Positions 44,717 to 50,154 of a DNA stretch of 64,000 nucleotides are shown one piece after another (within the stretch, counting starts at the first letter, position 1; every line of letters begins with the position of its first letter). The notes beneath the pieces are model-generated. The model was not told the origin of the DNA. It saw only the letters and a list, made by a program, of their open reading frames with translations, and ran no database searches. Made by a program: the position numbers and the translations under genes. Source of the stretch: Pseudomonas sp. SORT22 (GTDB lineage: Bacteria > Pseudomonadota > Gammaproteobacteria > Pseudomonadales > Pseudomonadaceae). The DNA is taken from NCBI RefSeq assembly GCF_018417635.1, contig NZ_CP071007.1, positions 1,612,501 to 1,676,500 of the forward strand, given 5' to 3'.

Positions 44717-46048
44717 TTATTCGTTGCGCGCGCCGATCCGCTGGCCCCAGGCACAGGCGGTGGCGTGCAGGGCCTGTTCGTCCAGGCGGGTCAGGCGCCG
44801 GTCGTCAAGCAGTGGCTTGCCGGCGACCCAGACATGCTTCACGCAGTCCCGGCCGCTGGTGTAGATCAATTGCGACACCGGGTCATACAGCGGTTGCTGG
44901 GCCAGGCCGGAAAGGTCGAACGCGACCAGGTCGGCGGCCTTGCCCACTTCCAGCGAACCGGTGATCGCCTCCAGGCCCAGTGCCCGGGCGCCGTTGAGGG
45001 TGGCCATGCGCAACGCCCGGTGGGCATCCAGGGCGCTGGCCGAGCCGGCCACGGCCTTGGCCAGCAGCGCCGCGGTACGGGTTTCGCCGAGCAGGTCGAG
45101 GTCATTGTTGCTGGCCGCCCCGTCGGTACCGACGGCGACGTTGACGCCGGCCTGCCACAAGCGCTCGACCGGGCAGAAACCGCTGGCCAGCTTGAGGTTG
45201 GACTCCGGGCAGTGCACCACACTGGTGTTGCTTTCTACCAGCAGGGCCAGATCCTCGTCGCTGACCTGAGTCATGTGAACCGCCTGCAGGCGCGGCCCGA
45301 GCAGGCCCAGGCGAGCCAGCCGGGCCAGCGGGCGCTCGCCGCGGGTGTGCAGCGATTGCTCGACCTCCAGGGCGGTTTCATGGATATGCATGTGGATCGG
45401 CGCGTCGAGCTCTTCGGCGATGACGCGGATCTTTTCCAGGTTGGCGTCGCTGACCGTGTACGGCGCGTGCGGGCCCAGGGCCACGGTGATGCGCGGGTGG
45501 TGGCGCAGGTCGCCGAACAGCTCGATGCCCAGCTGCAGGGCTTCTTCGGTGCTGCGCGCACCAGGGATCGGGAAATCCATCAGGGGCACGGCGATTTGCG
45601 CGCGGATGCCGCTGTGGTGCACGCGCTCGCTGGCTACCTTGGGGTAGAAGTACATGTCGCTGAAGCAGGTGATGCCGCCTTTTACCTGCTCGGCGATGGC
45701 AAGGTCGGTGCCGTCGCGGACGAAATCTTCGTCGACCCAGCGCTCTTCGGCCGGCCAGATCTGCTCCTGCAGCCAGGTCATCAACGGCAGGTCGTCGGCC
45801 AGGCCGCGAAACAGGGTCATCGCCGCATGGCCGTGGGCGTTGACCAGCCCCGGGCTGAGCAGGCAGCCCGGCAGCTCGCGGGTTTGCGCCGCGATGAACG
45901 CCTGGGCCTGGCTGCGCGGGCCGATGAACACGATCTGCCCGTCGCGCACGCCCAGGGCATGGTCCTGCAAAACCACCCCGGCAGGCTCGACCGGCACCAG
46001 CCAGGCAGGCAGGAGCAGCAGGTCGAGCGGCAAAGCGGGTTTGGGCAT
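44717..46048 (-). CDS. mtaD: Methylthioadenosine / S-adenosylhomocysteine deaminase (TRZ/ATZ family)
   Basis: A 443-residue amidohydrolase. Metal ligands fit the family: the HGH pair in [10 protein letters not shown] near residue 69-78, [12 protein letters not shown] with a later His, [12 protein letters not shown] and [14 protein letters not shown] with the final Asp. In P. aeruginosa the ortholog deaminates 5'-methylthioadenosine to methylthioinosine, the first step of a methionine salvage route that feeds MtnA after phosphorolysis. It is divergent from mtnA, with about 108 bases between the starts, consistent with a shared pathway. Confidence 0.9.
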
Positions 46049-46156: not shown

Positions 46157-47233
46157 ATGCGCGATCGACTAATGGCAGCAGAGAAGGTGAAAGCCATCGA
46201 TTGGCGGGATGGCACCCTCTATCTGCTCGACCAGCGCGCGTTGCCGTCGGCGCAGGTCTGGCTGGCCTGCAAGGACGCCGCCGCAGTGGCCGAGGCTATC
46301 CGCACAATGGTGGTGCGCGGCGCCCCGGCCATTGGCATCAGCGCCGCCTACGGCCTGGCCATGGCGATTGCCCAGCGCCTGGCCGCCGGCGGTGACTGGG
46401 AAATGGCCCTGGAAGAGGATTTCGAGCTGCTGGTGCACGCGCGGCCGACCGCCGCCAACCTGTTCTGGGCCCTGAACCGCATGCGTGAGCGCCTGCTGCG
46501 GCTCAAGGATGGCGATGACGTGCAGGCCGTCATGGCGGCTGAGGCCGTGGCCATTCATGAAAGCGACCGTGAAGCCAACCTGACCATGGCCCAGCTGGGC
46601 GTCGACCTGATCCGCAAGCACCAGGGCAACGAACAGGCCATTCTCACCCATGGCAACACCGGGGCCCTGGCCACCGGCGGCTTCGGTACCGCCCTCGGGG
46701 TGGTGCGCGGCGCTTACCTGGAAGGCATGATCGAGCGCGTCTATGTCGATGAAACCCGCCCGTGGCTGCAGGGCTCGCGCCTGAGCGCCTGGGAGCTGGC
46801 CGGCGAGGGTATCCCGGCTACCATCACTGCCGACTCGGCGGCTGCCCACCTGATGAAAACCAAGGGCATCACCTGGGTGATCGTCGGCGCCGAGCGCATT
46901 ACTGCCAATGGCGATGTGGCGAGCAAGATCGGCACCTACCAGCTGGCGGTCAATGCCATGCACCACGGCGTGCGCTTCATGGTCGTGGCGCCGAGCTCGA
47001 GCATCGACATGAACCTTGAAAGTGGCGACGACATCCTCCTTGAAGAGCGCAGCCCCAGCGAGTTGCTGGAGCTCGGCGGCGAGTCGCTAGGCGCCGACTT
47101 CGAGGCGTTCAATCCGGTCTTTGATGTAACTCCGGCCGACCTGATCGACGTGATCATCACCGAGAAAGGCATCGTCGAGCGCCCGGACACGGTGAAGATG
47201 GCGCAACTGATGTGTCGCAAGCGTTTGCATTGA
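46157..47233 (+). CDS. mtnA: MtnA (methylthioribose-1-phosphate isomerase) homolog with altered catalytic residues
   Basis: A 358-residue MtnA/eIF2B-alpha-like protein, full length. Most family blocks are conserved: [15 protein letters not shown] near 52-66, [14 protein letters not shown] near 135-148, [11 protein letters not shown] near 199-209. However, the segment that in active MtnA reads THCN is THGN here, with Gly166 at the catalytic Cys position. The segment GADRI is GAERI, with Glu246 at the catalytic Asp position. ANKIGT is ASKIGT (Ser256). In B. subtilis MtnA the catalytic pair is Cys160 and Asp240, the same 80-residue spacing. Isomerase activity is therefore doubtful, though the frame is intact. 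Divergent from mtaD and upstream of gyrA, the usual mtnA position. Confidence 0.9.
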
Positions 47234-47511: not shown

Positions 47512-50154
47512 ATGGGCGAACTGGCCAAAGAAATCCTCCCGGTCAATATCGAAGACGAGCTGAGACAGTCCTACCTCGACTACGCGATGAGCGTCATTGT
47601 CGGGCGTGCACTGCCCGATGCGCGTGATGGCTTGAAGCCCGTGCATCGCCGCGTTCTGTATGCGATGAGCGAACTGGGTAACGACTGGAACAAACCGTAC
47701 AAGAAATCCGCCCGTGTGGTCGGTGACGTGATCGGTAAGTACCACCCGCATGGTGATACCGCCGTTTACGACACCATCGTACGTATGGCCCAGCCGTTCT
47801 CGCTGCGTTACCTGCTGGTCGACGGCCAGGGTAACTTCGGTTCGGTCGACGGCGACAATGCCGCCGCCATGCGATACACCGAAGTGCGCATGACCAAGCT
47901 GGCCCACGAGCTGCTGGCCGACCTGCATAAAGAGACGGTCGACTGGGTACCCAACTACGACGGTACCGAGCAGATCCCGGCGGTCATGCCGACCAAGATC
48001 CCCAACCTGCTGGTCAACGGTTCCAGCGGTATCGCCGTGGGCATGGCGACCAACATTCCGCCGCACAACCTCGGTGAAGTCATCGACGGTTGCCTGGCGC
48101 TGATCGACAACGCCGACATCACTGTCGACGAACTGATGCAGTTCATCCCCGGCCCGGACTTCCCGACCGCGGCGATCATCAACGGTCGCCAGGGCATCAT
48201 CGAGGCCTATCGCACCGGCCGTGGCCGTATCTACATGCGCGCCCGCTCGATGGTCGAAGACATCGACAAGGTCGGTGGCCGCCAGCAGATCGTCGTCACC
48301 GAGCTGCCGTACCAGCTGAACAAGGCGCGTCTGATCGAGAAGATCGCCGAGCTGGTCAAGGAGAAGAAGCTCGAAGGTATTACCGAGCTGCGCGACGAGT
48401 CCGACAAGGACGGTATGCGTATCGTCATCGAGCTGCGTCGTGGCGAAGTGCCTGAGGTGATCCTCAACAATCTCTACGCCCAGACCCAGCTGCAGAGCGT
48501 CTTCGGCATCAACGTGGTAGCGCTGATCGACGGCCGTCCACGGGTGCTGAACCTCAAGGAGCTGCTCGAGGCCTTCGTTCGCCACCGCCGCGAAGTGGTT
48601 ACCCGCCGTACCGTGTTCGAACTGCGCAAGGCGCGTGAGCGCGGGCACATCCTTGAAGGCCAGGCGGTTGCCCTGTCCAACATCGATCCGGTGATCGCCC
48701 TGATCAAGGCTTCGCCAACGCCTTCCGAGGCCAAGGAAGCGCTGATCAGCACGCCGTGGGAATCCAGTGCCGTGCAGGTCATGGTCGAGCGCGCCGGCGC
48801 CGACTCCTGCCGTCCGGAGAACCTTGATCCGCAGTTCGGTCTGCGCGATGGCAAGTACTTCCTGTCGCCGGAACAGGCCCAGGCCATTCTCGACCTGCGC
48901 CTGCACCGCCTGACCGGCCTGGAGCACGAGAAGCTGCTGGCTGAATACCAGGAGATCCTCAACCAGATCGGCGAGCTGATCCGCATCCTCAACAGCGCCG
49001 AGCGCCTGATGGAAGTGATCCGTGAAGAGCTGGAGCTGATCCGCGCCGAGTACGGCGACGTGCGCCGTACCGAGATCCTCGATGCGCGACTGGACCTGAC
49101 CCTGGGTGACATGATTCCGGAAGAAGACCGGGTCGTGACCATCTCCCATGGCGGCTACGCCAAGACCCAGCCACTGGCCGCCTACCAGGCCCAGCGTCGC
49201 GGTGGTAAAGGCAAGTCGGCTACCGGCGTCAAGGACGAGGACTACATCTCGCACCTGCTGGTCGCCAACAGCCACACCACCCTGCTGCTGTTCTCCAGCA
49301 AGGGCAAGGTGTACTGGCTCAAGACCTATGAAATCCCTGAAGCCTCCCGTGCCGCGCGCGGTCGACCGCTGGTCAACCTGCTGCCGCTGGATGAGGGCGA
49401 GTACATTTCGACCATGCTGCCGGTCGAGGAATACACCGAAGGTCACTTCATCTTCATGGCCACCGCCAACGGCACCGTGAAGAAGACCCCGCTGGAATCC
49501 TTCAGCCGCCAGCGCAGTGTCGGCCTGATCGCCCTGGAGCTGGACGAAGGCGACGTACTGATTTCCGCGGCCATCACCGATGGCGAGCGTGAGGTCATGC
49601 TGTTCTCCGACGCCGGCAAGGTGACCCGCTTCAAGGAGTCCGACGTTCGCGCCATGGGCCGTACTGCCCGCGGTGTACGCGGCATGCGCCTGGCCGAAGG
49701 GCAGAAGCTGATCTCCATGATCATCCCGGAAGAAGGCAGCCAGATCCTCACTGCCTCCGAGCGCGGCTACGGCAAACGTACTGCCATTAGCGAGTTCCCG
49801 GAGTACAAGCGTGGCGGTCAGGGCGTAATCGCCATGGTCAGCAACGAGCGTAACGGCCGTCTGGTCGGGGCTGTGCAGGTGCTCGACGGCGAAGAAATCA
49901 TGCTGATTTCCGACCAGGGCACCCTGGTCCGTACCCGTGTCGGTGAAGTCTCCAGCCTGGGCCGTAATACCCAGGGTGTGACCCTCATCAAACTGGCCAG
50001 CGACGAGACCCTGGTGGGTCTGGAACGGGTCCAGGAGCCATCCGAAGAGGAAGGTGACGAGGACTTCGACGCCGACGTGGATGGCACCGAAGTGGACGCC
50101 GATGCGGCGCCACAGGCCGATGCCGCTGCCGACGAAGAGGCACAGCCGGAATAA
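47512..50154 (+). CDS. gyrA: DNA gyrase subunit A
   Basis: An 880-residue GyrA, starting [20 protein letters not shown]. The breakage-reunion domain carries the catalytic Tyr122 ([11 protein letters not shown]), and the quinolone-resistance region has the sensitive wild-type residues Thr83 and Asp87 ([11 protein letters not shown]). The C-terminal DNA-wrapping domain includes the GyrA box QRRGGKG near 563-569. The tail is very acidic ([18 protein letters not shown]), as in other Pseudomonas. ATG 47512 is the homology-supported start; the preceding frame is the structured leader. Confidence 0.97.

Follow-up and report, generated by a model that had tools for sequence, protein, structure and literature searches.

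Why would a Pseudomonas genome keep an uninterrupted gene for methylthioribose-1-phosphate isomerase, MtnA, once the protein has lost the residues that do the chemistry? The question arises from a window of 64,000 nucleotides (the whole stretch of DNA analysed) from Pseudomonas sp. SORT22, in which a sequence-only reading had noted an mtnA with Gly166 in the place of the catalytic Cys, Glu246 in the place of the catalytic Asp, and ASKIGT where ANKIGT is expected.

The window protein lacks three active-site residues

We aligned the window protein with solved MtnA-type chains (1t9k, 6a34, 4ldq, its mutant 4ldr, and B. subtilis 2yrf/2yvk). All five alignments pair Gly166 with Cys, Glu246 with Asp and Ser256 with Asn, and the codons agreed (Table 1), confirming the three replacements; the spacing of 80 residues between the Cys and Asp positions, the clean frame and the identity of both neighbours were likewise as first described. 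The protein nonetheless scores as an MtnA, with 424.4 bits on the equivalog model TIGR00512 (cut-off 279), and falls below the cut-off of the NCBIfam IF-2B alpha model NF006210 (63.7 bits against 339). An AlphaFold model of moderate confidence (mean pLDDT 78.0, below 50 at residues 168–172) had MtnA-type entries as its top structural matches, with a TM score of 0.87 to 1t9k, so that the predicted fold is kept while the catalytic residues are gone. Compared with MtnA as known from TIGR00512 and B. subtilis 2YVK, the window protein shares its length, locus, predicted fold and most residues taken as substrate contacts, but is without the catalytic Cys, the catalytic Asp and Asn256, and neither mtnC nor a true mtnB was detected in its genome.

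Sequencing error at codons 166, 246 and 256 was rejected, because protein P0002, which differs from the window MtnA at 2 of 358 residues, has Gly, Glu and Ser at the same three positions, and because sister species carry Gly166 (with Asp246). P0002 stands for a cluster of 25 sequences at 90% identity, and the residues are known for P0002 itself. The closest species-named relative was P. wadenswilerensis (94% identical).

Table 1 Features of the mtnA locus and the lone mtnD of the same genome
Feature	Position	Strand	Remarks
mtaD, methylthioadenosine deaminase	44717..46048	−	443 aa, open frame; earlier step of the same route; name from the sequence-only reading
mtnA, MtnA-family protein without catalytic residues	46157..47233	+	358 aa, open frame; TIGR00512 score
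Codon 54, Arg retained	46316..46318	+	Taken to correspond to phosphate-contacting Arg22 of PH0208; mapped by motif
Codon 96, Arg retained	46442..46444	+	Taken to correspond to Arg65 of PH0208; mapped by motif
Codon 166, GGC (Gly), replaces catalytic Cys	46652..46654	+	Structure-chain alignments, codon read
Codon 205, Gln retained	46769..46771	+	Taken to correspond to Gln166 of PH0208; mapped by motif
Codon 246, GAG (Glu), replaces catalytic Asp	46892..46894	+	Structure-chain alignments, codon read
Codon 256, AGC (Ser), replaces Asn	46922..46924	+	By spacing, corresponds to sugar-contacting Asn214 of the R15P isomerase PH0208
Codon 257, Lys retained	46925..46927	+	Corresponds to Lys215 of PH0208; mapped by spacing
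gyrA, 3′ neighbour	47512..50154	+	Name from the sequence-only reading; start placed at MGELAKEI
Lone MtnD/ARD homologue	L373:4983-5501		172 aa; about 65 kb downstream of mtnA; H-C-R-H against H-H-E-H of true MtnD

Loss of the salvage pathway

Two of the explanations first offered for the altered residues fared differently: a second functional mtnA could be excluded for this genome, and loss of the salvage route is supported. The whole 5.80-Mb single-contig genome contains one PF01008 match and thus no second IF-2B-family gene. Searches of the same genome gave no TIGR01691 match for mtnC, and the best candidate for mtnB reached 33.9 bits against a cut-off of 137.05, with none adjoining mtnD. 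In G019, a genome with the pathway, the order is aroC–MFS–mtnB–mtnD–mtnC–ligase–ankyrin, whereas the window genome reads aroC–MFS–mtnD–ankyrin (the names aroC, MFS, ligase and ankyrin are our reading of the frames); mtnB and mtnC are therefore missing around mtnD.

The lone MtnD of the window genome sits where G019 has mtnB–mtnD–mtnC. At four metal-ligand positions, which we take to be those of Klebsiella ARD, it has H-C-R-H, against H-H-E-H in MtnD of a genome with the pathway. The fold is presumably a cupin, and we rejected the idea that the ARD match is an unrelated cupin, given 61% identity to the true MtnD of G019 and the same neighbours. Four other left-over MtnD proteins are 64–66% identical to that of G019, and three far ones 43–48%. 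None of four MtnD proteins tried, whether true or degenerate, had an NCBIfam match, and Pfam ARD matched; a structure model of MtnD was poor (mean pLDDT 67.9) and was left out of use. Near relatives of this MtnD are named acireductone dioxygenase in databases.

We then placed the pathway in a genus set of 398 genomes, one per species, assigned to Pseudomonas by way of named relatives. Matches to mtnC exceeded the cut-off in 156 of them, and an ARD homologue was present in 389, including 233 of the 242 mtnC-negative genomes. In a chosen table of 30 genomes, mtnB passed its cut-off in the three mtnC-positive ones and in no other. The 92 mtnC-negative MtnD loci that we read comprised 23 of this first table and 69 of the 78 in a second selection, whose other 9 matches were not fetched. 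Of the 92, 84 were without at least one of the four predicted ligands in a MAFFT alignment, while all four mtnC-positive loci read retain the full set. The MFS gene adjoins MtnD at 92/92 mtnC-negative loci. Four mtnC-negative genomes (G105, G058, G349 and G114; loci L376, L377, L379 and L383) still have mtnB beside mtnD, three of them with all four MtnD ligands, and are apparent early stages of dismantling. MtnD ligands are lost with the MtnA Cys kept at 28 loci, and the reverse holds at one. Together with the four mtnB-bearing genomes, this suggests a loss order of mtnC, mtnB, the MtnD ligands and then, in MtnA, usually Asn256, Cys166 to Gly and Asp246 to Glu, an order drawn from present states and not from a dated series.

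Distribution of MtnA residues across the genus

mtnA was present in 396 of the 398 genomes; the two without a match are 86% and 77% complete. We read its sequence in 256: 239 of the 242 mtnC-negative genomes (leaving out G284, G289 and G366) and 17 of the 156 mtnC-positive ones. All 17 mtnC-positive sequences were Cys-Asp-Asn at positions 166, 246 and 256. Among the 239 mtnC-negative sequences, Cys was lost in 149 (Gly in 144, Ser in 4, Ala in 1) and kept in 90. The change of catalytic residues is thus not peculiar to the window genome; it turns up repeatedly in mtnC-negative species of the genus, and the fate of MtnD is similar.

Among 255 rows, Cys and Asn256 were both lost in 139, Asn alone in 11 and Cys alone in 10. 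Asp246 had become Glu in 16 of the 255, 15 of which were also without Cys. The combination Gly-Glu-Asn occurred in three genomes (G012, G255 and G324), and position 256 beside Gly166 varied by lineage, being Ser, Gly, Ala or still Asn. Codon 166 was GGC in 133 of 256 rows and TGC in 104, with GGT, TGT, AGC, TCC, GGG and GCC accounting for the remaining 19. The position thus holds small residues only: none of the 256 rows has Arg, Tyr, Phe or Trp there, though each is one base from TGC.

A census with a Gly-motif pattern matched 106 genomes, and in 104 of these mtnA truly carries Gly; in G060 and G289 the pattern had matched outside mtnA (mtnA of G060 is elsewhere, and the stretch fetched for G289 had no mtnA match). 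Of the 144 Gly genomes known from sequence reading the pattern overlooked 40, and its lack of any match in the 139 mtnC-positive genomes with unread mtnA is therefore weak evidence about them (it finds 104 of 144 Gly genes elsewhere). A Fisher comparison of mtnC, at 1/106 pattern genomes against 155/292 others, rests on this same pattern and ignores relatedness, and we give it no weight. By counts the association of Cys loss with missing mtnC is strong, but the species are related: an independent-pairs test gave 8 pairs, about 1.2 of them informative, with the informative ones all in one direction and the result not significant.

In three mtnC-negative genomes mtnA was interrupted or short: L371 (G318) has an in-frame stop, L039 (G321) is split into two matches, and L046 (G085) gave a short match close to a contig end.

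Repeated change from Cys to Gly

A tree built from mtaD and gyrA DNA in the flanks (255 rows) required at least 20 Cys/Gly changes, and an mtnA tree built without codons 166, 246 and 256 (256 rows) at least 16. Both are FastTree trees on short DNA and uncertain, and all change counts are approximate. Rooted on Cys, the flank tree implied 9–13 changes to Gly and 7–11 back, and the mtnA tree 13 to Gly and 3 back. With reversal barred, the changes to Gly rose to 30 and 17, respectively, and with every non-Cys state counted the losses numbered 34 and 21. Parsimony calls for 3 to 11 returns from Gly to Cys, which means that the change can be reversed or that the trees lack precision; the apparent returns may be tree error. 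Cys changed to Gly at least 9 to 13 times if reversal is allowed, and 17 to 30 times otherwise.

Selection on mtnA and mtnD

We estimated dN/dS with our own Nei–Gojobori count on disjoint pairs. The median for mtnA was 0.046 in 8 mtnC-positive pairs, 0.081 in 36 mtnC-negative Cys-Asp-Asn pairs, 0.077 in 64 Gly-Asp pairs (range 0.016–0.273) and 0.180 in 6 Gly-Glu pairs; pooled values were 0.051, 0.105, 0.107 and 0.208 in the same order. Gly-Asp pairs thus resemble mtnC-negative Cys-Asp-Asn pairs, indicating that loss of the Cys alone adds nothing to the relaxation that goes with absence of mtnC. The Gly-Glu class is more relaxed. The window mtnA, itself Gly-Glu, gave 0.076 against G007, its nearest relative in the set, 0.104 against G096 and 0.261 against the far Gly-Glu genome G249, bearing out the earlier expectation that the gene is under some constraint: the protein is retained under selection, as a pseudoenzyme would be.

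These values bear on the idea that mtnA, its pathway lost, is decaying neutrally towards a pseudogene, which we consider improbable. The pathway is gone, the genomes G318, G321 and G085 carry interrupted or short copies, and dN/dS lies above that of mtnC-positive pairs, most so in the Gly-Glu class, all as neutral decay would have it. However, the Gly-Asp median of 0.077 is not above that of mtnC-negative Cys-Asp-Asn pairs, 236 of the 239 mtnC-negative sequences are intact (aligned over at least 350 of 358 residues, no stop), mtnA persists in 396 of 398 genomes, and the same Gly was picked repeatedly.

We give hardly any credence to a second idea, that what is preserved here is a DNA element, for instance a gyrA promoter, and not the protein. 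In its favour, the position of mtnA ahead of gyrA is conserved, with gyrA in the fetched mtnA flank at 243 of 256 loci, but the dN/dS values point to selection on amino acids, and the last ten residues of MtnA average 93–99% identity to the mtnC-positive consensus in all four groups, even where pocket residues are lost. At 29 loci (for example, L257 = G145 and L278 = G117) the fetched flank had no mtaD match, with gyrA in place.

Degenerate MtnD is also constrained, more weakly than MtnA: its median dN/dS was 0.188 (36 pairs, range 0.063–0.821), compared with 0.119 for intact MtnD (5 pairs).

Predicted pocket

The related ribose-1,5-bisphosphate (R15P) isomerase PH0208 binds the 1-phosphate through Arg22, Arg65, Gln166, Lys215 and a backbone amide, and its sugar contacts are Asp204, Asn214 and Lys215 (PMC5789824). 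By motif and spacing, these contacts map to Arg54, Arg96, Gln205 and Lys257 and to positions 246 and 256 of MtnA. The window protein keeps all four predicted phosphate contacts, as do 105 of the 149 rows without Cys and 102 of the 106 with it. Retention differed between the Gly classes: in the 129 Gly-Asp rows, Arg54 and Arg96 were invariant (129/129 each), with Gln205 in 118 and Lys257 in 111, and the 14 Gly-Glu rows kept Arg54 in 6, Arg96 in 7, Gln205 in 10 and Lys257 in 3. Poor retention in the Gly-Glu class would fit a scaffold better than a sensor, although the window protein keeps all four contacts. Mutants of PH0208 are described as inactive with substrate still bound (C135S and D204N) or as having lost substrate binding (C135A) (PMC5789824). 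The latter means that a pocket without its Cys need not bind, which counts against a tightly held ligand.

With all four contacts intact, the window protein could in principle be a slow methylthioribose-1-phosphate isomerase that works through another residue and feeds some other MtnA-dependent shunt. The adjoining mtaD is an open frame, 90 mtnC-negative genomes retain the Cys, and a review suggests another pathway for methylthioribulose-1-phosphate (MTRu-1-P) in an E. coli strain (PMC6302742). Residual isomerase activity is nevertheless very unlikely: replacement of the Cys or the Asp singly is reported to kill the related R15P isomerase (PMC5789824), and here both are changed, along with Asn256.

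The pocket might instead have been rebuilt around Glu246 for another sugar-phosphate reaction. Consistent with a new enzyme, constraint by dN/dS is strong and some sites shift chiefly among Gly sequences: 43% of Gly-Asp rows retain Phe176 and 23% Ala229, compared with 100% and 99% of mtnC-negative Cys rows, and Arg247 has become Cys in 115 of 129 Gly-Asp rows. However, the window protein retains Phe176, Ala229 and Arg247, we can name no reaction, and the lineage-specific states of residue 256 beside Gly166 (Ser, Gly, Ala or Asn) are expected of relaxed chemistry and not of one new reaction. We regard a new enzyme as unlikely. Arg247 lies next to the catalytic Asp, and its replacement by Cys in most Gly-Asp rows is possibly a relocated thiol.

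A probable non-catalytic role for MtnA

The explanation that we favour, with some confidence, is that the window MtnA is a pseudoenzyme kept for a second, non-catalytic role after the salvage pathway was dismantled, and that it probably binds a sugar 1-phosphate without isomerising it. The pathway would have been dismantled first, with mtnC lost, then mtnB and then the metal ligands of MtnD. In a cell without mtnB and mtnC, the product of MtnA, MTRu-1-P, would be a reactive dead end, and switching off the chemistry of MtnA would for that reason be favoured. MTRu-1-P has been described as highly reactive, such that a pathway stopping there looked impossible, and the same review proposes another sink for it in an E. 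coli strain (PMC6302742). The protein itself may have been spared deletion by a fold- or surface-dependent role already present; its retention argues for a second role. The pocket, as predicted from the four kept contacts, would still hold a sugar phosphate. Against this explanation, 90 of 239 mtnC-negative genomes retain the Cys.

Among the known relatives, MRDI ('Mediator of Rho Dependent Invasion'; 4ldq and 4ldr, presumably human MRI1) is an MtnA with a non-catalytic role in its entry title; it differs from the window protein in that the alignment shows its catalytic residues retained. The MtnD/ARD remnant of the same genomes is likewise retained at its site under purifying selection after loss of active-site residues, but has an unrelated fold and weaker constraint.

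The suggestion of the sequence-only reading that appears to fit best is a non-catalytic role like that of the eIF2B-type relatives. The closest working model, by analogy, is eIF2B-alpha, a non-catalytic, regulatory subunit of the same superfamily that senses sugar phosphates in the ancestral catalytic pocket. In eIF2B-alpha the Cys is replaced by Ala in human and by Gly in S. pombe (PMC5789824), and Ala129, Glu198 and Asn208 are among its sugar-contacting residues (PMC8187479). Residues 129, 198 and 208 equal 135, 204 and 214 minus six, so that human eIF2B-alpha has, by numbering, Glu at the Asp position. The window protein matches this pairing of a small residue at the Cys position with Glu at the Asp position (Gly166 and Glu246, with human 129 and 198 mapped by the numbering offset), but has Ser256 where eIF2B-alpha keeps Asn208. 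The two differ further in that eIF2B-alpha is part of a five-subunit eukaryotic exchange factor and binds 5′- or 6′-phosphates, the pocket of MtnA being suited to a 1-phosphate.

If the pseudoenzyme explanation is true, Pseudomonas offers a natural experiment, with several replicates, on an enzyme losing its chemistry and not its cellular place, with intermediates alive in one genus. MtnA, and MtnD with it, would have a hidden second function that outlasts the pathway, a bacterial parallel to the origin of eIF2B-alpha. The name 'isomerase' would probably be wrong in the 144 species-level genomes with Gly, which would bear on metabolic models of methionine and polyamine by-products. A bolder version, which we put forward tentatively as a possibility that we would not bet on, is that Pseudomonas re-ran the change from enzyme to sensor nine or more times, once salvage had been dismantled, with MtnA as a sugar-phosphate sensor and metal-free MtnD as its partner; much of the genus would then carry a regulatory pair whose members databases still label as salvage enzymes. 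Among titles and abstract openings in the open-licence literature, a scope that mostly excludes subscription papers, we found no report of MtnA or MtnD pseudoenzymes in Pseudomonas.

In relatives of P. argentinensis and P. flavescens that form one clade (L040–L045), MtnA is only 51–53% identical to that of the window; most of the THCNTGAL motif is altered there, and Glu246 is present.
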